Assembly: GCA_002729315.1 (NCBI GenBank)
Contig: PBTW01000088.1
Span: 1 to 37,399, forward strand
Source: Gammaproteobacteria bacterium
GTDB lineage: Bacteria; Pseudomonadota; Gammaproteobacteria; Pseudomonadales; Pseudohongiellaceae
DNA length: 37,399 nucleotides
Direction of reading: 5' to 3'
In this document: positions 20,981 to 36,651 of the stretch, one piece after another
How the letters are laid out: each line of letters opens with the position of its first letter
Position numbering within the stretch: position 1 is the first letter of the stretch
Notes under the pieces: model-generated
Databases searched by the model: none
What the model was told of the DNA's origin: nothing
Seen by the model: the letters and a program-made list of their open reading frames with translations, nothing else
Translations under genes and position numbers: made by a program

Positions 20981-21736
20981 CTAATCGACAGACGCAACCA
21001 AACCATATTCTGCAGCCCGCTGATTATGGCGAGCATGCTCGATATAACGTTCTGACATCAGGTAGAGGTAGGTCTCGGTCAGCTGGATCGATTCGCGAAG
21101 GAAGGCAAATTTCGGGTCCGTTTCCGGCAGGGTATTCTCTGCGACCTCGAGCCGCGCTAGGAAAATTTTGCGCGCCTGCTGGAGATGCTGTTTTCGCTTA
21201 CCGTCGACATTCGAGTTGAAAGAATTGACATGCCAAGACGAGACTTTTTGCAAGCCAAATTCCAGCCTCTCATCATCTGTGGCGTAGAGCCGCCGATACA
21301 AATGCTCTAGGAGGTGATATTTGTTGTTCACTGCCGCCCAGTTCTCCAGGACCACTTCACTGCTGATCATGCACTCCACAATCGGTATGAGCGATTGGTG
21401 ATATAGGCCCTTTGAAACTCTTGCGATCTGCCAGACCTGTTCGAAGAGCTCGGAAGCAGAATTATGGTCACCCTCCTCCTGAAACCGTAAAGCGCGCGTC
21501 ATGATGGCCTGCGTATCAGTCTCGAGGTAAGAGGTGATCGGGATGTCCCTGACAGGAAGCGCTTCCTGAGAGAGGCTGACTGGCAGGCCGTACTCAGATC
21601 GGGCAGCCCTCATAGCTGGCTCTGCAGCTTCAGTATCTGAGATGACAATCGTAAGTAGCCCGCTAAGCACAAGCGCAGTTAAGGCTGGCGCCAGGGCGCG
21701 ATTTCTAGATGCGCTTCGATTAAATGTCGGAGTCAT
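20981..21736 (-). CDS. Secreted/periplasmic alpha-helical (TPR-like) hypothetical protein
   Basis: 251 aa; hydrophobic N-terminal segment ALTALVLSGLLTIVISDTEAAEPA; the region ALRFQEEGDHNSASELFEQVW resembles a TPR. Confidence 0.6.
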   Translation of the reverse strand: MTPTFNRSASRNRALAPALTALVLSGLLTIVISDTEAAEPAMRAARSEYGLPVSLSQEALPVRDIPITSYLETDTQAIMTRALRFQEEGDHNSASELFEQVWQIARVSKGLYHQSLIPIVECMISSEVVLENWAAVNNKYHLLEHLYRRLYATDDERLEFGLQKVSSWHVNSFNSNVDGKRKQHLQQARKIFLARLEVAENTLPETDPKFAFLRESIQLTETYLYLMSERYIEHARHNQRAAEYGLVASVD

Positions 21737-21909: not shown

Positions 21910-21930
21910 TTAAACAGCCCGTCCGGGCTG
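21910..21930 (-). terminator. Possible weak terminator for the MoxR operon
   Basis: CAGCCC-GTCC-GGGCTG hairpin (21915-21930), followed on the minus strand by TTTAATAT; about 105 nt past the last operon stop codon. Confidence 0.35.
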
Positions 21931-22034: not shown

Positions 22035-24056
22035 TCAGCGATAGGTTCGGTTGGCAACCAGCACTTCTACCAGCAGCAGTACCATCACCAGCGACAAAAT
22101 CCACCACCACAATCGCTGCGGATTCTCTAATTCCTCAATCAACTGGGCGGTCTGAGCATCTCTGGACTGCAACGGACTGGTATCAGGGTTCACGATCGCA
22201 TCATAAAGTGTCGATGTCGCTACTCGTGTGAAGTTGCTTTCCTCAGGCAGAATGTTGACTGCATAGCGGGTTGAGCCGGCACCCGACGTTGCGGTAAAAA
22301 GGCCAGGCGACGTCGCACGCTGCAAGTTGCTGGATTCAAGACTGACAGAGCGCCCGTCCGCATCCATAACCGAAACTTCGGTATCCAGCACAAACTGCTC
22401 CAGACTGATGCTATCGCCGATCTCGTAGGCGCTCTGGCCTACCTCTGAGCGAACCAGATGGCGGAGAGTTTCGTGTACAAAAGGCAAAAATAGCCCCTGC
22501 AGCGCTAAATTATTCCACTCGAGATCGAGGCTGGAGGCAAACAGCAAGACCTTGCCCTCCCCAACGTCCCTCTCTACCAGCGCCGCTTCCGCGTTATCGA
22601 ACCGCATCAGCACATTGGCATCCTCAGAGGGCGTTAAGCGCCAGTGCCCCTTAAAGCGTGCCGGCCAGTCGCTACCTAGAGAGCGCATAATGGGATGGCG
22701 GCGATCATAGTCTGCGATAACCAGGTAGTCGTCGCGGCCCAGCAAAACCATCTGCTCCAGCCTCGCCGGGCTGATTTCTCCCAACCGCTGGTTGAGCGCC
22801 TTTTCATCGACTCTGTCACCCGGCGCAATCAACAGGCTGCCACCGTTACCGACATATTCAGTCAATGCTGCAGCTTGTAAATTAGACAGTTCGCCGACGT
22901 TAAGCAACGCCACCACATCACTTTGACGCATCGCTGCCGCACTGAGCTCAGCAGAGTCAATAGTCTTAAGGGAGAAAGGAGAAGAATCAGTACTGCTCAC
23001 TGCCAAACCAAACCAATGACCCTCATCGTCAAACCAATTATCCGAAGCCTCGCCGTTGACCAGCAAAACGTTAATCTTGGGCAGAACATCAACCGTAAAA
23101 TAATAGGAATTGTCGTCTGAAAATTCATCGCCAGCGACCCGGATTTCACCAACGTAGTCACCCTCAGTGTCAAAATCTACGGCAAAAGTCACCACCTGTT
23201 CAGAGCGGTTAGCAAGGTCTACGGATCTGCGGTCCACCATTTGCCCGTTCAGCCTCAGGCTGACTTCTCCGCTTTCAAGGTACTGCATCCCGGTGGAGCG
23301 GACTCTGGCCAAAATTTGCTGTTGAGCGGAATCCTCAAGCAGCTGCTCGGGAGATCTTACATCGGTCAGTACCAGATTTTCACTGTCTGAGGAACCGACA
23401 TCAATTAGATACAGAGCGACTCCGGGAGCCAGTTTCCACGACTCATCGGCACCCTGCATCCCGACTTCTTGAAAGTCAGAAATTAGATATATTGCCCGGT
23501 TCTCATAGCGTGAATCCTGCAGCATCTGATCTGCCCGCCGCAGATTTGGATAATAGCGCGTGCGGCCAAACCCGGGTTCGTCAATGCCTTCGATTAGCTC
23601 TCTTATCTGGTCAACCGCAGTCTCAAGCTCCCGGACCACGTCCGCTGCGCTCGAAAAAGCGATCAGGCCAACCTCATCGCCCCCTGTCAATTGATCCACA
23701 ATCGCCAAAGCCTCAGCTTTCGCCTGATCAAAGTTTTCCTGAAAGCGCATACTCATCGACAGATCCAGTAGGATCACTGCCGACTGAGGGTCTGCATCAA
23801 GCAATCGCGCCACAGACTGATTGAACAGAGGCCGGGCAAACGCGAGCACCAGCAAGACGATGACTGCGGCGCGCAGCAGAAGCAAGGCTATCTGCTGGAG
23901 ATGCTGGAACAGCACCAGCTTTTTTGAGGTTTTTTTTAAGAACCGGATAGTGCTGAACATGACTTTGGGCGGCTTTTCCCGACGGATAAGATGTATCGCG
24001 ACAGGAATCAGGGCTGCCAGCAAGCCAATTAAAAAAACTGGAGTAAGAAATACCAT
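22035..24056 (-). CDS. BatA-domain/vWA membrane protein with GATase-like segment
   Basis: 673 aa; N-terminal LTPVFLIGLLAALIPVAIHLIRREKPPKVMFSTIRFLK (BatA domain), MIDAS VILLDLSMSM (DxSxS), mid-protein VVALLNVGELSNLQAAALTEYVGNGGSLLIAPG, C-terminal TM. Confidence 0.85.
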   Translation of the reverse strand: MVFLTPVFLIGLLAALIPVAIHLIRREKPPKVMFSTIRFLKKTSKKLVLFQHLQQIALLLLRAAVIVLLVLAFARPLFNQSVARLLDADPQSAVILLDLSMSMRFQENFDQAKAEALAIVDQLTGGDEVGLIAFSSAADVVRELETAVDQIRELIEGIDEPGFGRTRYYPNLRRADQMLQDSRYENRAIYLISDFQEVGMQGADESWKLAPGVALYLIDVGSSDSENLVLTDVRSPEQLLEDSAQQQILARVRSTGMQYLESGEVSLRLNGQMVDRRSVDLANRSEQVVTFAVDFDTEGDYVGEIRVAGDEFSDDNSYYFTVDVLPKINVLLVNGEASDNWFDDEGHWFGLAVSSTDSSPFSLKTIDSAELSAAAMRQSDVVALLNVGELSNLQAAALTEYVGNGGSLLIAPGDRVDEKALNQRLGEISPARLEQMVLLGRDDYLVIADYDRRHPIMRSLGSDWPARFKGHWRLTPSEDANVLMRFDNAEAALVERDVGEGKVLLFASSLDLEWNNLALQGLFLPFVHETLRHLVRSEVGQSAYEIGDSISLEQFVLDTEVSVMDADGRSVSLESSNLQRATSPGLFTATSGAGSTRYAVNILPEESNFTRVATSTLYDAIVNPDTSPLQSRDAQTAQLIEELENPQRLWWWILSLVMVLLLVEVLVANRTYR

Positions 24057-24071
24057 GCTCTGCGACTGACC

Positions 24072-24965
24072 CTAGAAACTTTTAGCGCGTTTTGACATAT
24101 AAGAAGACAGAGCCTCGTCTAACGGTTCTGCAGTATTCAGCAGACAGTAATCCACGCCACTGCTTTGACACTTCTTACGACAGTAAGCGAGAAATTCATT
24201 TAGGTGTTCCAGATACGCCTGCCGGATCGCGGCGGGCGAAGTGATGTAAGACTCATCGTTTTCCATATCAATAAATTCGGAGGCATCATTGAACGGGAAA
24301 CTCAGCTCCGCATCGTCCATCACCTGAAAGGTAATGATGTCGTTTCCCATACCCCGAAGATTTTGCAGGGTGTTAATCACCTTCTCTTCATCATCCAGCA
24401 TATCTGTAATCAGTATCACAATACTCTTTTTATGAAGTGAGGCCGCCAGATCAGCAAGGGGTTTGACTGTATTAGTTCTCTTGCCTGACTCCACCTGAGA
24501 GAGTGTCTTCAGAATCCGCAGCAGGTGCGGCTGTCTGGTTTTAGGAGGAATGTATTCTCTAACCTGATCATCAAACGTGATCAGACCAACGGCATCTCGC
24601 TGTTTCATGATGAAATAGGACAAGGCAGATGCTAGGGTTACGCCGTAGCTCAGCTTGCTCATTCCACCAGAGCTGTAGGCCATTGATGCGCTTGTGTCGA
24701 GTAGAATCACACAGCGAACATTGGTTTCGTCCTCGTATTGCTTAATATAAAACCTGTCACTCCTAGCATAGAGCTTCCAGTCTACGTGACGCAGATCGTC
24801 GCCACGCTGATAATGGCGATAATCGTTGAATTCGACGCTGAACCCCCGATTCGGGCTCTTGTGCAGCCCGGACAAAAAACCCTCAACGACGACCCGGGCG
24901 CGTAATTCGAGATTGTCGAGCCCCGACAGCACATTGGGATCAAGAAAGTTGATTGACTCTGCCAT
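24072..24965 (-). CDS. DUF58 domain protein (vWA-like MoxR partner)
   Basis: 297 aa; FNDYRHYQRGDDLRHVDWKLYARSDRFYIKQYEDETN is the DUF58 signature; ILLDTSASM MIDAS. Confidence 0.94.
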   Translation of the reverse strand: MAESINFLDPNVLSGLDNLELRARVVVEGFLSGLHKSPNRGFSVEFNDYRHYQRGDDLRHVDWKLYARSDRFYIKQYEDETNVRCVILLDTSASMAYSSGGMSKLSYGVTLASALSYFIMKQRDAVGLITFDDQVREYIPPKTRQPHLLRILKTLSQVESGKRTNTVKPLADLAASLHKKSIVILITDMLDDEEKVINTLQNLRGMGNDIITFQVMDDAELSFPFNDASEFIDMENDESYITSPAAIRQAYLEHLNEFLAYCRKKCQSSGVDYCLLNTAEPLDEALSSYMSKRAKSF

Positions 24966-24999
24966 ATTACTTACGCTGGGTTAACGTCTGCGAATTGAT

Positions 25000-26052
25000 T
25001 CAGATTTCTGACCTTGGTTCAGGGACTGCCTCCAGCAATCGCATGATCACCTCGTCTGTCGTTATCCGCTCTGCTTCGGCGTGGAAATTCAGCAACATAC
25101 GATGTCTGAAAACAGAGGGCGCTAGGGCCCTCACATCGCTGAACGAGACATTGTAACGACCCAGTAAGAGTGCCCGGACCTTTCCCGCTAAGATGAGATT
25201 CTGCGAGGCTCGAATGCCAGCTCCCCAACTGACCCAGTCCTTGATAAATTCTGGCGCAGACTCGCTTTGTGGCCGCGATGCGTGTACAAGACGCACTGCG
25301 TACTTAATGACTGCTTCAGCAGCAGGCACCTGACGGGCAATACGCTGAAAGTCAAGAATATCCTCACCGCTGAGAGGGTGGGAGAGCACCCGATCATGAT
25401 GTTGAGTCGTTTGGCTGACGACAGTCACTTCATCATCCTCGGACAGATAACCCAGCTCGATTTTGAACATGAACCGGTCAAGTTGAGCCTCAGGCAACGG
25501 GTAGGTGCCCTCAAGTTCAATGGGGTTTTGTGTCGCAAGCACAAAAAACGGCTTCGACATGGGGTGCGTCACCCCGGCCGCGGTAACTTGACGCTCCTCC
25601 ATGGCTTCAAGCAGCGCCGACTGAGTCTTGGGCGGCGTCCTGTTGATTTCGTCAGCCAGCAGAATATTGGTGAATATCGGCCCTTTTACAAACTTGAGCT
25701 GTCGGCCACCGTCGGACTCTTCCACAAGCTCTGAGCCCACGACATCAGCTGGCATGAGATCCGGGGTAAACTGAATACGACTGAAGTCGACCTGCAGAAT
25801 GTCAGCGACCGTTTTGATCAACAGTGTTTTAGCAAGACCCGGCACCCCTGTGACCAGCACATGGCCACCACCAAACAGGGCAGTAAGTAATTCATCAATG
25901 ATGTCATCCTGACCTACGATGACTTTTTTAATCTCGGCGACAATCTGATCGCGACCATCCTGCATGCGTCTAACGAGGGCAATATCATCCTGATTCTCGA
26001 TCTCCAGTGCTTGTTCTTGTTCCGCCATGGTGTTGTCCTTAGTCTCTGCCAC
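25000..26052 (-). CDS. MoxR family AAA+ ATPase
   Basis: 350 aa; GGGHVLVTGVPGLAKTLLIKT Walker A, ILLADEINRTPPKTQSALLEAMEERQVT Walker B, FVLATQNPIELEGTYPLPEAQLDRFMF sensor 1. Confidence 0.97.
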   Translation of the reverse strand: MAETKDNTMAEQEQALEIENQDDIALVRRMQDGRDQIVAEIKKVIVGQDDIIDELLTALFGGGHVLVTGVPGLAKTLLIKTVADILQVDFSRIQFTPDLMPADVVGSELVEESDGGRQLKFVKGPIFTNILLADEINRTPPKTQSALLEAMEERQVTAAGVTHPMSKPFFVLATQNPIELEGTYPLPEAQLDRFMFKIELGYLSEDDEVTVVSQTTQHHDRVLSHPLSGEDILDFQRIARQVPAAEAVIKYAVRLVHASRPQSESAPEFIKDWVSWGAGIRASQNLILAGKVRALLLGRYNVSFSDVRALAPSVFRHRMLLNFHAEAERITTDEVIMRLLEAVPEPRSEI

Positions 26053-26880
26053 TTAGTGGCTGAATGCGTAGATTAAAAAGTTAATGCCGATCTTGTAGGC
26101 TTCGTTGGTGGACTGGGTTGGATATCCCTCGTAGAAAGTGTGTTCCCAACCATCTCCAAGATCTGTGTTGTAATTCGCAACCATCATGGCCCTGCCGTCA
26201 TCATCTAGGACAGCATAAACCTCGGGTGGATAGCTGGGATCATCTAGATTCATAAAACCACCAAAATCCCAGGTCACCATCCTGCCCGGCACTTGAGCGA
26301 CTTCATCTATGTCAAAGAAAATATGGAAGATTTCATGGCTCGTATCCAGCTTAATAATTTCGCGGTCAGGAAATATTTTGCCCATTTCCATGAACATATC
26401 GTCAAGATGCGGCTCCCCCCAAAAATCATCAACCATCACAAAGCCGCCGCGGAACATGAATTCGCGTAAAGCCTCTATTTCTTCCTCAGAAAAATTCGGC
26501 CCGCTAAAGGATGAGCCTATGGGCACGCGTTTCCAGTTCATATACAAAAAAATGTGTTCGAAAAGACGCGGATCGGTTAACTGAATAAAGGTTCGATTGC
26601 GGGGATTGGTATCGACGTTGGTATAGCGCTGTACGCCGCGCAAAAAATTCTCATCGGAATCCGGATAGTCAGTATCCCACCAGCCACCGCGCCGCCGCCA
26701 GCCATAGCTAGCGGCCCCGCCCCCGTGGTTGGTATATTGACCCCGGAGCCAGGTAAATTCGGTGACTTCGGTGCCATAAATTGAAAGATCCTCGTTGTTG
26801 CCGGATAGCGGCATCACCTGAGCACCAAGCTCCAGCGAAACGATCAGACTAAACATACAGAGAAGGGCCACCTTTATCAC
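26053..26880 (-). CDS. DUF4159 domain protein, secreted
   Basis: 275 aa; signal peptide; LFEHIFLYMNWKRVPIG...FSEEEIEALREFMFRGGFVMVDDFWG...HEIFHIFFDIDEVAQVPG typical of DUF4159. Confidence 0.88.
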   Translation of the reverse strand: MIKVALLCMFSLIVSLELGAQVMPLSGNNEDLSIYGTEVTEFTWLRGQYTNHGGGAASYGWRRRGGWWDTDYPDSDENFLRGVQRYTNVDTNPRNRTFIQLTDPRLFEHIFLYMNWKRVPIGSSFSGPNFSEEEIEALREFMFRGGFVMVDDFWGEPHLDDMFMEMGKIFPDREIIKLDTSHEIFHIFFDIDEVAQVPGRMVTWDFGGFMNLDDPSYPPEVYAVLDDDGRAMMVANYNTDLGDGWEHTFYEGYPTQSTNEAYKIGINFLIYAFSH

Positions 26881-29597
26881 CTGCTGCCGTCTCCTTCGAC
26901 CGAACGCAGCAACAGGCGTTGTGCGCGTACATAACTAGGCGCCTGTTCCAAGGCATACAGCAAATTCCGTTTTGCTTCACTTGCCTGCCCGTTATTGAGA
27001 TAGGCTTGCGCAAGGTTCGTGAGGGCTTCAACAGGGTCGCTGATCTCGAGTTGCATCAAAACTTCATATTCAGTAACCGCCGCAGCGCTGTCATTGACCG
27101 CCTCGGCATATCTCGCCTTCAGTTCATGGACATCACTTCGATAGGGATCGACCTGAATCGCTCGATCCAGATAATAGGCGGCCTGCTCAAAATCTGACTC
27201 CTCAAGAGCTGCTCCAGCCAGCACCATGGCAGCTCCATAGTCGTGCTGTAGATTTTCCATCAGCACTTTAAGCCATTGCAGGCGGGATTGTCGGTTTCCC
27301 TCACGCTCATAAATTTGCGCCAACACCAATGCCGGGCTTGGATAGCCGGTGTAGCTTGGCAGCATCTCATGTGCTGTTTTTAGGTATTGCTTCGCTTCGA
27401 CGAATGCCTCCTCTTTAAACAGAACAATGCCCAACTGCAGATAGGCCTGAAAGTCTCTGCTGTTTTCCTCAATACGCGCTCGCATGTGCTGTTTGAGAGA
27501 GGCGTTGTTGTAAAGCTCCGCAAGGATCGCGCTGCTGTTCTCGCGAATCCCGTGACCGTGACCGTCTCCTTCATCCGGCACATCTTCTGTGTGAGCATAC
27601 ACATTGATCTCTTCCACCCTCTGATTGATCCAACCTCGAAAACCAGCATCAAAATCATCCATATTAAGTTCGAAGACACTGCGAAAGCGCTCTGCATCGT
27701 CCTTGATCTCACCATACTGATAAATCAGCTCAGTCAATTTTTCAAAGCCGTAAGTCTGTGTGATGTAGTCCACGACCAGATAGGACTGGAAATAAGCAAA
27801 ATTGAGGTCCGCGTTATTGCGGGCCCCCGAAAAGCCACTGTTCAATTCGCCGACGGGCAAAAGCTTCTGCTCCTGTGCTGCCCGAACCAGATCTAACCCC
27901 TGACGACGCCCCCAGTAAGGCCGGCCCTCTCGCTCTTCCCAGACAGAGATGCCCTCGGACAACCATCTTGGCATACGATTCTGGGTCATCTGCAAAGTGA
28001 TCACGTGCATAAATTCATGCCACACAATTTCCTGCCAGTTTGCCGTCAGGGTGTCCGGTGAAATCAGAGTGATTACCTTGCCAAAACAGATTCCAACCAG
28101 TGGACCGATATCTGGAAGGCCGACGGAGCGCACCGCAAAATCAGCACTGTTTTCGAAGACTTCGATAAGAACCTTGCCTTCTGGCTCAAAGCCGTATTTT
28201 GCCGTGAGCGTGTCCCAGCCCTCCTCAAGCAAAGGTTCCAAGTAAGGCCAGAGAATAAGTGAATCTCTTTCACTCATGTGCACTTTGAAATGCTCGCTTT
28301 CAGCTGTTGTATAGGTTTCCAGCGTGTCAAAGACTTTGAGCATGTTGGAAGTCATCACGTTGAACGGGTCATTTTCGAATCCGATCTCTAGGCTCTGTCT
28401 ACCCTCTTCCTCCTCACCGAGGCGCATCAGGTTGCTGCCCAGCAGCGTATGGCCCTGCCAGTACTCAGGATCGGCCTCAATGCTGGCGCGCGCATAATGC
28501 ACTGCCTCCTCAAACCGATAATTATTCCCGAAGCTGTCCGCGATATGCCCAAGAAATTCGGCATTGCCGGGGCTGAACGCTTCAACCCGCCGTTGATAGC
28601 CAGCAAAATCGTCGAAGCGTTCTTCCAGCGCCGCCGAGGCCGCCAGCACACTGAGCGTTTTCAGGGATTCGGGATTCAGTTCCAGCACTTTGTCGAAATA
28701 CTCTTCAGCTTCCTGCTCACGACCATTTATCATAAGAAGCTGGGCATAGGTCTCCAGCGCCTGAACTGAATTTGGATTAATGGCCAGCGCCCGTAGCAAA
28801 GACTTTTCATCACCCACAACCTGCGCAATGCCCACCAGCGCCGGCACGTATCGCGAATTCACTTCTAATGCGTCCTGATAGCTTCGCTCAGCATCGGCTG
28901 CGTTGTATTTCTCCAGAAACAGATCAGCCCAAAGGGTGTGGGCCTCAAGATTATTAGGGTTTGCTCTGGTGGCCTCATCAAATAGGCTATTGGCGTCTTG
29001 AAAATTGCCCATCAACCAACTCGCCAGCGCGACCATCGCGACATCCTCTGAACTGAAAACCAGCCCGGCGTTATAACGCTGAACCACTTTGTCGAGCACC
29101 TGCTGCCATTGTCCCTGCCGTCCGGTAAATTTGAGGAGGCTGCCGTACTGAACTAGGCTTCGCACCGGGGGTTCCGCATTGCCTTCGATTGCCTGCTGAA
29201 GTATTTCCAACGCGGCGCGGGATTGGCCTGTCATGCGTTTGATTTCGGCCAGCTGGGTGGTCAGAAGCGGGTAGTCTGCGTACGCACCATCCTCAATTGC
29301 CTCAGCAACAAGATTTTCCGCTTCCAGATAATTCCCAATCATCACGAGCGCTCTGCTGGCACCAATTAGGCCATCGATGCGATCCAGACCATCGGCTTGT
29401 CTGAATATTTCACTGGCAGCAGCGTATGATCCGGTCAACATCAACTCCTCGCCTCGATACAGCACAGAATCCTGATTCGTGGAAAGTGCATCTTGGGCAA
29501 TAACCGCGGACGCTGGGGCTAGCGCAAAGAGAATCGCAAAAGACCAAACGGCAGACAATGTTTTCAAGAATTGATTAGTAAGCATGGATTGCACCAT
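26877..29597 (-). CDS. TPR-repeat protein with embedded gluzincin (Peptidase MA-like) domain
   Basis: 906 aa; signal peptide; N-terminal and C-terminal TPR-like repeats flank IVWHEFMHVITLQMTQNRMPRWLSEGISVWEE (HExxH plus downstream SEGxxxWEE). Confidence 0.85.
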   Translation of the reverse strand: MVQSMLTNQFLKTLSAVWSFAILFALAPASAVIAQDALSTNQDSVLYRGEELMLTGSYAAASEIFRQADGLDRIDGLIGASRALVMIGNYLEAENLVAEAIEDGAYADYPLLTTQLAEIKRMTGQSRAALEILQQAIEGNAEPPVRSLVQYGSLLKFTGRQGQWQQVLDKVVQRYNAGLVFSSEDVAMVALASWLMGNFQDANSLFDEATRANPNNLEAHTLWADLFLEKYNAADAERSYQDALEVNSRYVPALVGIAQVVGDEKSLLRALAINPNSVQALETYAQLLMINGREQEAEEYFDKVLELNPESLKTLSVLAASAALEERFDDFAGYQRRVEAFSPGNAEFLGHIADSFGNNYRFEEAVHYARASIEADPEYWQGHTLLGSNLMRLGEEEEGRQSLEIGFENDPFNVMTSNMLKVFDTLETYTTAESEHFKVHMSERDSLILWPYLEPLLEEGWDTLTAKYGFEPEGKVLIEVFENSADFAVRSVGLPDIGPLVGICFGKVITLISPDTLTANWQEIVWHEFMHVITLQMTQNRMPRWLSEGISVWEEREGRPYWGRRQGLDLVRAAQEQKLLPVGELNSGFSGARNNADLNFAYFQSYLVVDYITQTYGFEKLTELIYQYGEIKDDAERFRSVFELNMDDFDAGFRGWINQRVEEINVYAHTEDVPDEGDGHGHGIRENSSAILAELYNNASLKQHMRARIEENSRDFQAYLQLGIVLFKEEAFVEAKQYLKTAHEMLPSYTGYPSPALVLAQIYEREGNRQSRLQWLKVLMENLQHDYGAAMVLAGAALEESDFEQAAYYLDRAIQVDPYRSDVHELKARYAEAVNDSAAAVTEYEVLMQLEISDPVEALTNLAQAYLNNGQASEAKRNLLYALEQAPSYVRAQRLLLRSVEGDGSR

Positions 29598-30734
29598 TTA
29601 GCGAATAGAGGTTGACTGCGATTCAATCGGCTCATCTGCGGAGTCGAGGGCAGGGGGTGTCGATGTAAATTCAGAATTAAAGCGGGCAGTGCTACGCGCC
29701 AGATCTACCAGCAGATCCTCCATTTGCTGCCAGTACTCTGCTTCAAGGTATTCCGCCTTTCTGGCCCGCAGCATGATCACAGATCTTTCTAGGTCCTGCA
29801 TTCGGGATTTAAGCGCAAGCCCCTCGGCGGAAAGGTTCTCACCTTCTTCAATCAGAGAGTCAATATAGGCGATTTCAGCAAGACGCCCATCGGCAATATC
29901 CACGACAGGGTCAAGACTGAACAGCGCATCGCCATTGTCGTCGAGACCCGCATGTTCGGAAGCTAGGCGGCCCTGCTCTTCATACCACAACTCAACATTG
30001 GCCTTCGCATATTCAAATGCCTCAAGCATGGACACGCGGTTGTTCTTATCCCGATCTCCATTGCGCTGATCGAGAGCCTCTATGAAGTATCCGGAGAAAA
30101 CGGGGTCGTAGCGCTCTGAAGAGGAACGGGTCGATGAGATCACCACCCGGCCCTTACTAGACAGCGAAGAGGAAAAACCAAAGCTCGCGCTGGTGGTGTT
30201 GATAATAACCATATCCTGCTGATCGAACCGGTCCAGAAGTGAAGCGAACTGCACTCCCGTCATATCCGGACCGAAAATATTGAACTTGGCTTCCTCCTCG
30301 GAACCAGATCCGTGACCGATGAGATAAAGCGTGATCTGATCGCCCGTCTTCACGCGTTCCGCAAGTCGCTCGAGCGCGAGTTCGATTCCCTCCCGACTGC
30401 AGGATCCGTCGACCCGGTCGCCACCGGTAAAGTCATCTTCACCGTCGTCATAGAGCAGCGTGATCGTTTGAGAACTGTAGCCATAATCCCGCACAAGTAT
30501 GTCGTGCAGAGACAGAGACCACTGACGAAAACGCGCCGCATTGTCATCACCGACGGCCGGCCCGGTCATGATGACAGCATATTTTGTGGTTGCGGGAGTG
30601 TCGAGAAAGCGCCTTGCAGGCAGATCTAAGCCCGGGTTCTGGGCACTTGTGATCCCTGCTAAAGCCAGCGAGCACAGGAAGGCCAGCGATTTCGCAGTCC
30701 GGCCTCTCGCTGTGATTGAAGTCAAATTTTCCAT
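29598..30734 (-). CDS. Clan CD caspase/legumain (C13)-like protein, predicted catalytically inactive; start refined from ORF 29598..30818
   Basis: Start MENLTSITARGRTAKSLAFLCSLALAGITSAQ (signal peptide) at 30734, with ATG overlapping the upstream TAA (TAATG). YAVIMTGPAVGDDNAARFRQWSLSLHDILVRDYG, LYLIGHGSG (His), then MVIINTTSASFGF where the Cys is expected, RVVISSTRSSSERYDPVFSGYFIEAL. Confidence 0.8.
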   Translation of the reverse strand: MENLTSITARGRTAKSLAFLCSLALAGITSAQNPGLDLPARRFLDTPATTKYAVIMTGPAVGDDNAARFRQWSLSLHDILVRDYGYSSQTITLLYDDGEDDFTGGDRVDGSCSREGIELALERLAERVKTGDQITLYLIGHGSGSEEEAKFNIFGPDMTGVQFASLLDRFDQQDMVIINTTSASFGFSSSLSSKGRVVISSTRSSSERYDPVFSGYFIEALDQRNGDRDKNNRVSMLEAFEYAKANVELWYEEQGRLASEHAGLDDNGDALFSLDPVVDIADGRLAEIAYIDSLIEEGENLSAEGLALKSRMQDLERSVIMLRARKAEYLEAEYWQQMEDLLVDLARSTARFNSEFTSTPPALDSADEPIESQSTSIR

Positions 30735-33037
30735 TAGGACAGACCTTTCAGTCGCCGTGCCGTCCAATCCAGACTCAACAAACTGAGCAGCAGAGCAAGT
30801 AGCCACGGCTGATCCCACAGATCTAGGCTGACCTGCTCAGAGTAGGCATTGGGGGTAAATTCCACGGCGCTGGTCAGCTGATCGATATCAGCCAGATCAA
30901 AATAGGTTCCGCCACTGAGCTCAGCGACCCGCCCAAGCAGCCCCGTGTCCATGGCAGCGTTATTGAACTCCCTAAGGGAAGGAGTCACTACAAAAGGCAC
31001 CCGCTTTTCAGATTCTCCCGAGCGTCCCTCCCCCGCTGCGCTGGCAACATCTACAAGCAGATCATAAACACCCTCTTCCTCAACCAAGAAGCTACCGCGA
31101 TAGACACCGTCTTCCTCAATATCCCATTCCATAGATTGATCTAGAACAACATCGAGCGGCGCATTGACCTGCATCCACAGCGTGGCGTCGTTATCAGGAT
31201 CGTAATCCATATCCAGCACAGTTGCTGTTACATGAACTTCATCGCCCACATTGTAGAATTCCCGATCAAATTCAACGGTGACTCGCTCCGGAGCGGCGAC
31301 AGCAAGCCAGCGAAGCAACTGCTTCCAGAGGGTTTCATGAGATTGATCAGCAGCCTCCATCATCATCTGCCACCGCCAAGTGCTGGCAGTCGTCAGCGCG
31401 ACGCTCCGACCGCTGCCGTAGCGCTGCGTTGTGAGCACAGGTAAAGCCTGATTCTGATACTGCAGCAACGGATGCTCCATCAAGACGGTTGCTCCGGGTT
31501 TGATTCGGCCAGTCACGAATACCCCCTGCAACTCGGGCAGTTGTCGCCAGCGCATGCCGTTTTCTCCATCATCACCTGACAAGCGTAGCAGAGGCGAGAA
31601 TTCCCCGTTATTGGTAAGTCGCGGAAAGAAGGGTTCTCCCGTTGGATGACTCCCCCGGCGGATGCCCCCGCGAAGATGAGATGGCAAAAAGCTTTCCTCA
31701 ACCAAGGTCACCGGCAGCAAATCTTCCACTGGCGTGCCGATAAATTCCTCATCAATCATGCCGCTCATCAGAAAACCACCACCACGCTCAGCGACAAATT
31801 CCTGGATCATCTGCAGTTGATCCGCGTTAAAGAAGCCCTCTTCGATATCACCGAGAACCAAGGCTTCATACTGGTAGAGCTCTTCCTTTGAACGCGGAAA
31901 ACCACCACTGAGTTCGGTAGGTGTGTTGATACCTTGCCGGTAGTATTTTTCCGGCCCCGTTTGGAGATAGGTAGCAAGCCGAACAGATTTATCATCCTCT
32001 ACGGCCCTTCGGATAAATTTATATTCATTTCGCGGATGCCCCTCAATATAAAGTATGTCGAGTGGCGCTTTTTCTGTATTGTCCACCAGAAACTGGTAGA
32101 CATTGTTTTCCGCAATCAGTTCGTCGCTCCGCAGCTCAACTTCCAAATCGTAAACGATCGCGTCGGGACGCTCCGGAGTCAATTCAATCTCGTAGCGGCG
32201 CGTCACCCCGGCCGCACCAAGTGTCACCATTTCTGATGCCACTTCCTGATCACCATCAAGAATAGCGATCCTGACGTGCTCGCCCGTATAGCCCTCATGA
32301 TTGATCCCGACTGAGACATTGAAGACAGAGCCTTCCAGCACGGTTTTCGCTGCATTGACATCAACGATGCCGATGTCCAGCGGGATCTGCTCCTGTCCGA
32401 TACCCACCGTAAAAATCGGGATGTCACGACTGCCGAAATTCCGGGCTTTGGCGAGGGGATCCAGTTCGCCGTTATCCGCGCCATCGGTCAGCAGGATCAG
32501 CGCTCCCAGAGGAAGCCCCCCGAGCTGATCATCCACATACTCGAGAGCCTGGCCGATTGAAGAAGCTGTACCTGATTCGCCCAGCCCCTCTGCCCCTGCG
32601 ATTCGCTCGGCGGTTTTGTCAAACCTGAAACTGCGAATCTGAAAATTCTCCGCCAGCCCGTCGAGAACCCCACTGTCATAAAACCCTTCACGCATGGCCT
32701 CTCGCCTAGTTTGGCCTCCTGACATGTCGGCAACTGCCATACTCTGCGAATCATCGATAAGCACCGCCAGGTAGGTTTCCTGAGGCGCAACCTGAAGTGT
32801 TGTGATTACCGGACGCAGCAGACAAAACAACAGGATTATCAGCACAGTGGCGCGCAAACCAGTGAAAAACACCTTCCAGGGAAGCGTCAGCGGGCGGGTC
32901 GTCTTCCGATAGCCAAACCAAACGCTAATCACAATTAAGGCGATCAACGATAGAAAGAATATTGGACTGACGCCATAGGCGAAGTCGACGCTTCCCTCAG
33001 CCAAGGCGGATAGTAAATTAGGTTCTGTGTATTGCAT
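30734..33037 (-). CDS. Membrane-anchored vWA + GATase-like protein
   Basis: 767 aa; two N-terminal TMs, MIDAS AVLIDDSQSM, LILLTDGADN, GATase-like LDILYIEGHPRNEYKFIRRAV...YEALVLGDIEEGFFNADQLQMIQEFVAERGGGFLMSG, C-terminal TM LLALLLSLLSLDW. Confidence 0.85.
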   Translation of the reverse strand: MQYTEPNLLSALAEGSVDFAYGVSPIFFLSLIALIVISVWFGYRKTTRPLTLPWKVFFTGLRATVLIILLFCLLRPVITTLQVAPQETYLAVLIDDSQSMAVADMSGGQTRREAMREGFYDSGVLDGLAENFQIRSFRFDKTAERIAGAEGLGESGTASSIGQALEYVDDQLGGLPLGALILLTDGADNGELDPLAKARNFGSRDIPIFTVGIGQEQIPLDIGIVDVNAAKTVLEGSVFNVSVGINHEGYTGEHVRIAILDGDQEVASEMVTLGAAGVTRRYEIELTPERPDAIVYDLEVELRSDELIAENNVYQFLVDNTEKAPLDILYIEGHPRNEYKFIRRAVEDDKSVRLATYLQTGPEKYYRQGINTPTELSGGFPRSKEELYQYEALVLGDIEEGFFNADQLQMIQEFVAERGGGFLMSGMIDEEFIGTPVEDLLPVTLVEESFLPSHLRGGIRRGSHPTGEPFFPRLTNNGEFSPLLRLSGDDGENGMRWRQLPELQGVFVTGRIKPGATVLMEHPLLQYQNQALPVLTTQRYGSGRSVALTTASTWRWQMMMEAADQSHETLWKQLLRWLAVAAPERVTVEFDREFYNVGDEVHVTATVLDMDYDPDNDATLWMQVNAPLDVVLDQSMEWDIEEDGVYRGSFLVEEEGVYDLLVDVASAAGEGRSGESEKRVPFVVTPSLREFNNAAMDTGLLGRVAELSGGTYFDLADIDQLTSAVEFTPNAYSEQVSLDLWDQPWLLALLLSLLSLDWTARRLKGLS

Positions 33038-33039
33038 GT

Positions 33040-36000
33040 CTACTGTCTCGGGCTGTCTGACCCCTGACTCTCTGACAATACACGATAGTATTCCTGAACT
33101 AGGTCCCGATACTCCTCAGGCAACTCTTCGTCGAAAGACGTGTACAGCTTGTTATTGATGTTGTCCAATTCGGCTTTGGCGCGCAGCGCGCCTTCGAGCT
33201 CGATAATCGGCTGGAGAAGCTGGCGAAACAGCTCCGGTTGATTGATGAAATCTTCGATGTCCTGCTGGGTCAGTTGTTGCCTGATCGAACGGGCATTCCC
33301 CCAAGGAAGATTGTTGCCGTCGGTGTCGATCGTTCCACCCGTGCCAGCGCGCTGCTCACCATCCTCTCGGGCACCCCCGATTTGCTGTCGGTTTCCGAGA
33401 GCACCAGCTCGCCCAGCCTGCGTGCCCTGCTGCCCGCCCCTCGCCTGATCGCGCAACTGATCCTGCAGCTGTTCAGCCAGTTGCTGGCTGCGCTGCAGCT
33501 GCGCTCGCATATCACGAAGGTTCGGCTGCGTGCCCTGCTGGCTGCCATTGTCGTTGAAGGCCAGCGCCTGTTGCTGTAGCGACTCGACCTGCTCTCTCAG
33601 GTTTTCCGCATCTTCCGCAGCGCGTTGGAGCTGATCAGATTCAGAACCTTGAGTCGCCGGATCGAGTCTGGCCAACGAGTTGGCCAGATCTTCAAGTTGA
33701 TCTTCAATTTCCTCTTCGATGTTGACCGCTAGATTCACCATGCCATTGCGCAGTACACGGCTGCTGGTGGACATTTCTTCTCGAATCGGTCGCAAGTCGC
33801 GGCTGGCTTCCTGAGCCTGCGACATAAGACGCTGATCCTCATTACTGCCACGGGCGATGATCGCCCTCAGCATGTCCTCGATTTCTTCAAGATCTCGCTG
33901 CTGTTGTTGTTGCGCCTGAATAAGCTCCTGCAGGCTTTCATCATTGCGCACTGACTGACGCGTCTGTCCGAGTCCCTGCTGCCGGCTAGTTTCCGCAATA
34001 CGCTCCTGTAACTGCCGCTGCTGCTGCAGCAACTGCTGCCCGCGCTGCCCCAGATTCTGCGCCAACTGATTCACTGAACTCTCACCCTGTTCATTCAGCC
34101 GCTGCTGTTGCCGCCGGAGGTTTTCCAGAGCCTTCTGGCTACGCGCCGCCGCGATGGAAGCAGAGTCACTTTCCGCCGCTTCCTGCATTTGCTGCGCTGC
34201 GCGCTGAATGGCACTCTCACGCTGCTGCGCACCGGAATCACTGGTGCCAGAAGCTGACTGCGACTGGCTGTTATTCTGCAACGAAGACTGATTACTCTGC
34301 TGACCTAGCGCCATCTGCTGGGCTAGTTGCGCGACCTCGCGGCTCAGCTGCTCCTGCTGCCGCACAAGACGCTCCAGTTCGCGGCGCTTTTGCTCTTCAG
34401 TCATCTGGTCTTCCCGCCGCGCCAGATTGCGCTGTGCCCGGGTCAAGCCCTCCTGTCGCCGCGCCAGCTCTTCCAGCTTGTCGATCTCCTGCTGATTCTG
34501 CTGAGAGCTTCTTCCCCGGGAGTTGGGCGTTTCGTAGCGATTCTCCAGCTGTCCCATTTCCATTTCAAAAAGCTCTCTGAGATCCTCGCGCTCTTGCTGC
34601 GCCGAACCGCCACCGCCGCCTCCACCACTTTGCTGCATGCTGATACTCGTACGATTGATGTTTGCTTCGGCCTTTAGGATGTATTGCAAAGCCAGCTGTT
34701 CAGGCTGAAGGGCACTGGTAATCTGCACTTTATCAAGTTCACCCGCCGCCAGATTCATCTGCTCAATGGCCATCGACAGATTTTCGACCGCCGAGTCATA
34801 TGTATCGTCTGAAAAGTTCAATCGCTCGGCCAGACGATCAATCGACATCCTCGCTCGACCGGTGGCCTCTCGCTGGGATTCGGCAATAATTTCCGCATCA
34901 GCTCCGAACTCCTCCGGGGATACCTGATTCTGACGGTTGCGCAACTTCCACGTCGCCGCAATGATATCTTTCTGCACTGAAACCAACGCGCTGCTGTCAC
35001 CACCCTGACCGCCGCCGGCACCCTGTCCCCCACTCATCCCCGGATTTCTCCGAAATTCCTGATCCGTAGGGATAATCTGCAGGAAGTAGATATCGGAAAT
35101 CACCTCAGTCGGGCCGTCCAGGCCGTTATTGTCGGCTAGCGTAAGAAAATAACTGACAAAATCTCCCGGTTCGACTTCGAGGTCTTCAAGATAAATCAGC
35201 TCGCTGCCTGCAACGCTGCGAACATTTTCTCCAGTGAGGAAATCCACTTCGACCGCTTCTGAGCCCACCACACTGTAATTCAGAGTGAACTCGCTTAGTC
35301 CGTAATCATCGCTGGCATCCACCTCCAGTACCACTTCCTCCAGCGGCATCACTTCTTGATCGCGCCCAGGACGCCGCAGAGAGAGTTCCGGCGGTGCGTC
35401 CTCTATAGACCTGATGAAATAATCCAGCGGCTCCTGACTCTCTAGGCCAGCCAAATCGGTGGCGAATATCCGATAGACCCCATCCTGAGTCACGGTGAAG
35501 CTCGCGCTCCCGAGATCACCGTCGATTTCCAGATCTAGATCCTGATAAGAGGGTAGTTCCGAACCGGCTTCTGCGGGATCCCGATAGCTCTCCTCGAACT
35601 CCACTCGAGCTGTCGCAACGGCCTTGTTGAACTGAATATCTAGTAAAACCTTTGTACCTTCCGGCACAATCATGTCACCAGTGTCCTGTTCCGTCGTGTC
35701 GGTCAGCTCGGTGTAGTCAGGATAATCGAACGCCAGATTGATCTGCTCGACTTGTGGCAAATCGAACAGTTTTATCTGAAATTGTGAAGAACTCTGTTGT
35801 CCCCGCTCTTCGAAGGCAACGTAATAGGTAGTATCCACCTGCAGCGAAGGAATGAAATAGCTGTATGTAGCACTGCTGCTGCCACTGCCATCCCGACTCA
35901 TGGATACATCCTGCCAGTTGACGTTGTCATCCTGCAGCCTTAGATCGATACTATCTGGCGTTGCGTTGGAGACACGGGCGACAATCGTGACACTGCTACC

Positions 36001-36651
36001 GCGCTGTAACTCAAGATCGCCGGGCTCTACTGAAATTTCAATATCCGGTAGAAATTCCGCGACGACCAGTGGCTCGGAAATCGCGAAAGGCCAGGCCAAG
36101 CGGGTCCCGGAATTCAACAACGATTCCGAATTCAAGAACACTGCTGAAACCACAGAAACCACCGTAAGGGCGGCAGCAAAACTCATCCAGGATTGCTGCG
36201 CGGGCGCCACCGTTTCAACTTCCCGCTGCTGCTCGACCACGTGGGCCTGTGCATCTTCCCACAGTTGCTGGATAAATTGCGTAGAGACTCCGGCGCGACC
36301 GTATTTAAGATCGTCCTCGCTGAACTCCAGCGAAGTCAGCAAGCGCTGTTCAAAGTCCGGTATGTGGTCCTCAACATAATGCGCCAGCATTCTGTCGTCC
36401 GTGTTACGGCGGCGAAGCAGGCGCAGGAACGAGGCGGTGATCAGAAACCCAGCAAATACTGCCACTGCAAACAAAGCAATGGAGCCTAACTTTCCGGGCT
36501 CCACCCACGCGCCCACGAGGCTTAATGACAGGGCTAAGACGGCTAGGGCGATAGTAAAGAGGCTTGCGCCCTTCAAGAAGAAAAACCTAGCGCGGCGACG
36601 GCGAAGCTGCTGGAGTGTCTGTTGGAGACTTGCGATGGTTGGTGTGGTCAT
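33040..36651 (-). CDS. DUF4175-like membrane protein with Gln-rich coiled-coil C-terminal half
   Basis: 1203 aa; two N-terminal TMs plus a third near aa 155; beta-rich middle; long Q/E/R-rich region (RREDQMTEEQKRRELERLVRQQEQLSREVAQLAQQMALGQQ...); directly upstream of the vWA/GATase gene (2-nt gap). Confidence 0.75.
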   Translation of the reverse strand: MTTPTIASLQQTLQQLRRRRARFFFLKGASLFTIALAVLALSLSLVGAWVEPGKLGSIALFAVAVFAGFLITASFLRLLRRRNTDDRMLAHYVEDHIPDFEQRLLTSLEFSEDDLKYGRAGVSTQFIQQLWEDAQAHVVEQQREVETVAPAQQSWMSFAAALTVVSVVSAVFLNSESLLNSGTRLAWPFAISEPLVVAEFLPDIEISVEPGDLELQRGSSVTIVARVSNATPDSIDLRLQDDNVNWQDVSMSRDGSGSSSATYSYFIPSLQVDTTYYVAFEERGQQSSSQFQIKLFDLPQVEQINLAFDYPDYTELTDTTEQDTGDMIVPEGTKVLLDIQFNKAVATARVEFEESYRDPAEAGSELPSYQDLDLEIDGDLGSASFTVTQDGVYRIFATDLAGLESQEPLDYFIRSIEDAPPELSLRRPGRDQEVMPLEEVVLEVDASDDYGLSEFTLNYSVVGSEAVEVDFLTGENVRSVAGSELIYLEDLEVEPGDFVSYFLTLADNNGLDGPTEVISDIYFLQIIPTDQEFRRNPGMSGGQGAGGGQGGDSSALVSVQKDIIAATWKLRNRQNQVSPEEFGADAEIIAESQREATGRARMSIDRLAERLNFSDDTYDSAVENLSMAIEQMNLAAGELDKVQITSALQPEQLALQYILKAEANINRTSISMQQSGGGGGGGSAQQEREDLRELFEMEMGQLENRYETPNSRGRSSQQNQQEIDKLEELARRQEGLTRAQRNLARREDQMTEEQKRRELERLVRQQEQLSREVAQLAQQMALGQQSNQSSLQNNSQSQSASGTSDSGAQQRESAIQRAAQQMQEAAESDSASIAAARSQKALENLRRQQQRLNEQGESSVNQLAQNLGQRGQQLLQQQRQLQERIAETSRQQGLGQTRQSVRNDESLQELIQAQQQQQRDLEEIEDMLRAIIARGSNEDQRLMSQAQEASRDLRPIREEMSTSSRVLRNGMVNLAVNIEEEIEDQLEDLANSLARLDPATQGSESDQLQRAAEDAENLREQVESLQQQALAFNDNGSQQGTQPNLRDMRAQLQRSQQLAEQLQDQLRDQARGGQQGTQAGRAGALGNRQQIGGAREDGEQRAGTGGTIDTDGNNLPWGNARSIRQQLTQQDIEDFINQPELFRQLLQPIIELEGALRAKAELDNINNKLYTSFDEELPEEYRDLVQEYYRVLSESQGSDSPRQ

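Follow-up and report, generated by a model that had tools for sequence, protein, structure and literature searches.

An eight-gene MoxR operon of Pseudohongiellaceae, related to Rhizobium RL3499-RL3502, with a putative secreted gluzincin and a caspase-fold protein lacking the catalytic cysteine

MoxR AAA+ proteins are described as working with vWA partners in a chaperone-like manner, in assembly or as switches (PMC3893208). Among the characterised examples, the RL3499-RL3502 operon of Rhizobium leguminosarum, as described in PMC3893208, PMC5118466 and PMC5700661, is the one to which the locus reported here is most readily compared. RL3499 mutants have defects in membrane integrity and morphology (Vanderlinde et al. 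2011, as cited in PMC3893208). Bat (Bacteroides aerotolerance) operons likewise combine MoxR, DUF58, BatA/vWA and TPR proteins, but no DUF4159, DUF4175, protease or caspase-fold protein is described for them (PMC5700661). TldD/TldE and PqqF/PqqG, which bear on the locus in another way, are each reported to be a two-component protease acting on peptide precursors (PMC8602642).

The window analysed is a stretch of 37,399 nucleotides from the genome of a marine bacterium of the Pseudohongiellaceae (Gammaproteobacteria). Eight adjacent ORFs, A to H in order of transcription, occupy positions 22035-36651 of its minus strand. Gene A (33040..36651, 1203 aa), the first of the operon, encodes a DUF4175-type protein predicted to lie in the inner membrane, and B (30734..33037, 767 aa) a protein with a double TM, a vWA domain, a glutaminase-like region and a C-terminal TM. 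These are followed by three putatively secreted proteins: C (29598..30734, 378 aa from an ATG, with an alternative longer ORF starting at a GTG at 30818), which has a caspase/legumain fold; D (26877..29597, 906 aa), a TPR protein with a gluzincin domain; and E (26053..26880, 275 aa), a DUF4159 protein. The last three genes encode a MoxR AAA+ ATPase (F, 25000..26052, 350 aa), a soluble DUF58/vWA protein (G, 24072..24965, 297 aa) and a protein with a BatA double TM, a vWA domain and a C-terminal TM (H, 22035..24056, 673 aa).

Spacing within the block is tight. Read directly, the junctions are 2 nt at A/B, TAATG at B/C, 0 nt at C/D (TAAATG), a 4-nt overlap at D/E, 0 nt at E/F (TAAGTG), 34 nt at F/G and 15 nt at G/H. 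This bears out the closely spaced minus-strand genes of the initial annotation, including the length of the D/E overlap; its sequence, however, is GTGA and not the ATGA given there, because E starts with GTG. Internal promoters or terminators, which according to the initial annotation would refute its proposal, appear in a pattern scan of the region at chance level, with no excess of promoter-like matches (8, against 10.9 with an sd of 3.0 in shuffled sequence) or of terminator-like matches (14, against 15.9 with an sd of 3.7). About 100 nt past H, a terminator-like hairpin with a T-run (21915..21930, minus strand) closes the operon. Downstream of this hairpin, positions 20981-21736 of the minus strand encode a secreted 251-aa protein that adjoins the operon in most loci of the same genus. 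A weak homologue of it (28% over 122 aa) is found on contig C42, beside a solo DUF4159 gene.

Pfam searches assigned most of the proteins to known families. D matched TPR and Peptidase_MA_2, E matched DUF4159, G matched DUF58 and VWA, and H matched BatA and VWA with a sub-threshold GATase-like match; B matched GATase1_like above the cut-off and VWA below it. F is a MoxR protein of the AAA_3 family (212.6 bits), its bpMoxR match being far lower (39.5 bits). No match to BatD, a component sought by comparison with Bat operons, was found in the operon by Pfam or NCBIfam scans. The DUF4175 match of A exceeds its cut-off (29.6 against 27.3 bits). TIGR02302 is a DUF4175-like family. A TIGR02302 gene and a MoxR gene are both included in the CenKR envelope regulon of Rhodobacter (PMC9275681).

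The catalytic and ion-binding motifs are near-invariant across about 90-107 aligned sequences. Walker A and Walker B are intact in F, as are the MIDAS motifs of G, H and B (DxSxS in B). D carries the zinc-binding motif HEFMH at residues 527-531 (28005..28019, minus strand), with Glu548 as candidate third ligand; both histidines, the motif glutamate and Glu548 are kept in 104/104 aligned homologues and in three further families. Alignments of homologues show no conserved cysteine fit for catalysis in E, H or C, and the single conserved cysteine of B sits in a membrane segment. A solved structure, 4i66 (Hoch_4089), is available for DUF4159. Judged by motif, no intact periplasmic catalytic site was found besides that of D, a protease.

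Topology was read from hydropathy and charge, together with the published topology of BatA (PMC5700661). A is predicted to have TM helices at about residues 32-50, 58-76 and 155-173, with a cytosolic loop of 78 aa and about 1000 aa of Gln-rich coiled coil beyond the third helix. In B and H, two TM helices joined by a short basic (Lys/Arg-rich) loop would be followed by a large periplasmic region and, at the C-terminus, one more TM. In Borrelia, the vWA domain of the BatA-type protein BB0173 has been reported to be periplasmic (PMC5700661). C, D and E have hydrophobic N-termini interpreted as signal sequences; the one in C lies below the hydropathy threshold used. This agrees with the periplasmic set of gluzincin, pseudo-caspase and DUF4159 protein that had been proposed from the sequence at the outset.

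Comparison with sampled alphaproteobacterial operons places the locus beside RL3499-RL3502. DUF4159 is uncommon in Gammaproteobacteria (11/370 genomes) and frequent in the phylum sample, mainly as a BatA fusion of about 950 aa (72/299 genomes). The operons with this fusion read MoxR, DUF58, BatA-DUF4159 and a membrane protein of about 700 aa, and were equated with RL3499-RL3502 by this gene content, not by comparison with the Rhizobium sequence. In hhalign profile comparisons, B corresponds to the 700-aa membrane protein that ends these operons (99.8%), H to the N-terminal part of the fusion (99.4%) and E to its C-terminal part (92.9%). Like RL3499-RL3502, the locus has adjacent MoxR and DUF58 genes, a DUF4159 protein, a BatA double TM and a B-type vWA/GATase-like membrane protein of about 700 aa. 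Kinship with a rhizobial MoxR-DUF58-DUF4159 operon, suggested in the initial annotation, can now be stated gene by gene. The two differ in that BatA and DUF4159 are fused in RL3499-RL3502, whereas E is a separate, secreted protein in the A-H operon, to which A, C and D are added.

DUF4159 genes also occur outside such operons. A second, unlinked copy without a MoxR partner lies in the same genome at G000:C42:2430-3227 (L096). Other solo copies are those of loci L093, L094, L097, L262-L264 and L268-L271, and several families have one to three of them. Both L094 and L096 have a DUF6351 tannase-like gene near the solo DUF4159 gene.

Genome-neighbourhood analysis, also proposed in the initial annotation, recovered the complete A-B-C-D-E-F-G-H order in 83 fetched loci, 67 of them distinct. 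All 20 loci of the same genus have the eight genes in this order, save where the contig or the fetched stretch ended, and four loci of a sister genus do likewise. Nearly all loci without the complete order are cut by contig ends. In the one interior exception, L189, an intact stretch of the final 17 residues of E adjoins the expected position; E is thus present there, though disrupted or masked in the record. The survey covered Pseudomonadota, and a contig scan gave 80 loci, all apparently from close relatives of the Pseudohongiellaceae type. One copy with the ordinary Pseudohongiellaceae-like operon comes from a record titled Chloroflexi bacterium (L146); this title or bin is probably wrong, because its operon copy is Pseudohongiellaceae-like.

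The same genes recur in other arrangements in four more gammaproteobacterial families. In families f25, f189 and f237 the order is E-B-C-D-F-G-H-A (with A running off the contig in f237), and in f122 it is B-C-D-F-G-H-A-E. Across the three gene orders, seven genes keep one cyclic order while E moves. The eight-gene set is therefore a real, co-inherited unit, as the proposal of a single multi-component unit had supposed. Loci with C and D form one clade in both the MoxR tree (100/97) and the DUF58 tree (100/99), and in these trees family f25 clusters with families from other taxonomic orders, while f16, which belongs to the same GTDB order, falls in a second operon type described below. Such a pattern would be consistent with transfer of the whole operon, or with ancient inheritance followed by loss.

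Co-inheritance bears on whether C and D belong functionally to the rest. It is conceivable that A, B, E, F, G and H work together and that C and D are merely co-transcribed with a separate task, as Rhizobium-type operons work without them. C and D nevertheless stay adjacent between B and F through three orders and five families, with E interposed before F in Pseudohongiellaceae. At E<=1e-10, C was detected only in its own genome and in two others among 230 genomes of the class, both of which carry the operon. Weak caspase-profile matches in other families of the phylum reach at most 29 bits and were not counted as members. Because the C-D pair is fixed and C is absent from the other sampled genomes, a separate role for the two seems quite unlikely, and the second protease pair found beside the core in the other operon type also speaks against it.

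C itself has no Pfam match. An AF2 model built from 63 sequences (pLDDT 89.2, pTM 0.83), which replaced an earlier one from 12 sequences (pLDDT 64), matched legumain/PIG-K in Foldseek (E 1.8e-7, probability 1.00), and the profile of the same 63 sequences matched Arabidopsis metacaspase-4 (E 2.8e-7). C shares its fold and the dyad histidine with the caspase/legumain/PIG-K superfamily (clan CD). In the metacaspase-4 alignment, His141 of C (codon 30312..30314, minus strand) lies in the HG motif, whereas Ser182 (codon 30189..30191, minus strand) falls on Cys139, the position of the catalytic cysteine. Both residues are invariant (63/63), among 16 invariant columns, and the cysteine position is Ser in every sequence found. 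The designation of C as a pseudo-caspase, made before any fold was modelled, is thus upheld in both fold and lost nucleophile. Since both dyad positions are invariant even though the cysteine is gone, C might be a Ser-His hydrolase or transferase built on a caspase fold, and not a dead partner, within a trans-envelope proteolysis machine that runs on ATP and whose periplasmic protease modules, each of an active metalloprotease and an inactive partner, can be exchanged; we regard this as a long shot.

The co-occurrence of MoxR, vWA and caspase-fold proteins also recalls the ternary conflict systems of PMC7159879, in which case the operon would act as a defence switch with C as the caspase effector. 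However, none of the eight genes encodes a VMAP, iSTAND, FtsH or beta-propeller third component, and C combines the missing cysteine with a signal-like N-terminal segment. Presence in the genus is vertical and near-universal, with housekeeping neighbours. A role in defence is accordingly very remote. The defence-system candidate was rejected with a single, marginal PADLOC library match (DolB, E 4e-4).

A second gammaproteobacterial operon type provides a parallel to the C-D pair. This type reads TldD-TldE-E-F-G-H-A'-B' in 10/10 loci examined, from six families. Its proteins A' (about 750 aa) and B' (about 640 aa) correspond to A and B in hhalign comparisons (99.0% and 97.1%), and both types thus have a six-gene core of DUF4175, vWA/GATase, DUF4159, MoxR, DUF58 and BatA/vWA proteins. 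The Rhizobium type keeps five of these six families, in four genes. In all ten loci the core is adjoined by a TldD that carries HExxxH and a TldE that lacks the zinc motif. Nine of the ten TldD N-termini start with a Tat-like M/V/L-x-R-R-x-F, and the tenth is the same with its start cut; TldE has neither HExxxH nor a twin-arginine-like start. Extra Tat-type TldD copies flank the TldD-type operon in L085-L088, L233 and L236, the last with TldE as well. In Stenotrophomonas maltophilia, genes NIPOLPBK_01784-01792, which answer to this type, have been described as a 'not-yet-characterized operon' that is co-regulated and down-regulated in biofilms (PMC7688217).

Both types consist of eight genes, with the core and an HExxH-type protease beside a partner devoid of the zinc motif, but they differ in the pair itself, which is TldD/TldE in one and the gluzincin D with the caspase-fold C in the other. 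D and C stand where TldD and TldE stand, but the comparison is one of analogy, as C and TldE are unrelated. The parallel, an active protease and a seemingly inactive partner beside the same core, is in our view the main new argument. The initial annotation had noted neither this counterpart operon, nor the exact Cys-to-Ser change in C, nor the lack of a conserved candidate catalytic cysteine in B, E and H. Four genomes of the same genus (L254-L257) carry a TldD/TldE pair that resembles the one of the TldD-type operon but is unlinked from MoxR, and the two protease pairs are therefore not mutually exclusive in a genome.

Taken together, these observations suggest, with a probability of roughly 45%, that the products of all eight genes form a single machine spanning the envelope, a variant within the RL3499-RL3502 family, which would maintain or mature envelope proteins by proteolysis under the control of ATP. 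In the cytosol, a MoxR hexamer of F and its MIDAS partner, the DUF58 protein G, would spend ATP on remodelling or gating A, B and H. Candidate contact points for F and G are the cytosolic loop of A (about 78 aa) and the short Lys/Arg-rich loops of B and H. On the other side of the membrane, the vWA and glutaminase-like domains of the membrane proteins may hold the secreted E, D and C, such that A, B and H would carry force or a signal from F and G to E, C and D. D would be the cutting subunit and C would present or gate the substrate, as TldE does for TldD. In Leptospira biflexa, deletion of the bat genes, which are located beside moxR there, left growth and morphology unaffected (PMC3557215); this stands against the proposal.

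The chaperone and quality-control role envisaged in the initial annotation is borne out as regards one multi-component unit with a periplasmic set, but not as regards a general chaperone or quality-control function. The only intact catalytic site detected in the periplasmic set is that of a protease, and the processing of specific exported substrates is therefore an equally live reading. In its narrowest form, D (with C) would be a dedicated maturation protease that cuts one exported precursor or peptide, with MoxR gating or assembling it and no general quality control. Such a role would suit the position of TldD/TldE beside the same core in TldD-type operons, given the peptide-precursor activity described for TldD/TldE and PqqF/PqqG (PMC8602642). 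Yet the eight-gene block has no conserved candidate precursor gene, and the protease-less Rhizobium operon, as summarised in PMC3893208, gives a broad envelope phenotype. A dedicated maturation protease is thus a serious account, though on balance an unlikely one.

MoxR proteins elsewhere also serve in metalloenzyme assembly (PMC3893208), and the operon might, like the mxa operon, insert metal into or assemble PQQ alcohol dehydrogenases of the periplasm, or else molybdoenzymes. Five PQQ alcohol dehydrogenases exceed the family cut-off in its own genome (G000), which has weaker matches as well, and in family f25 genes like moaC, moaE, moeB, mogA and moeA, as read from the proteins, lie directly upstream (L090 5586-10150, L244 17340-19898). 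The matches in this genome are located on contigs C8, C31, C98, C118, C120 and others. Beyond the genome itself, however, of 18 others that carry a DUF4159 operon, 15 lack a PQQ alcohol dehydrogenase at E<=1e-60, among them all three f25 and both f237 genomes, while the enzyme occurs in about 96 genomes of the order that lie outside the few DUF4159-positive families. Unlike in an mxa cluster, no linked PQQ dehydrogenase was found in the window by Pfam search of the larger ORFs, and in none of the other families inspected do the molybdenum genes lie upstream of the operon. A metalloenzyme role is hence rather improbable. As specific candidates, PQQ-dehydrogenase assembly was rejected on the grounds that operon and enzyme do not co-occur in other families, and a molybdenum-cofactor link on the grounds that the upstream genes are seen only in family f25.

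MoxR-vWA systems are widespread. The occurrence of two unrelated metalloprotease pairs beside the same core suggests that periplasmic proteolysis is the job of this core, or one of its jobs. C would represent a conserved family of caspase-fold proteins in which serine replaces the cysteine, useful for asking about roles beyond proteolysis.
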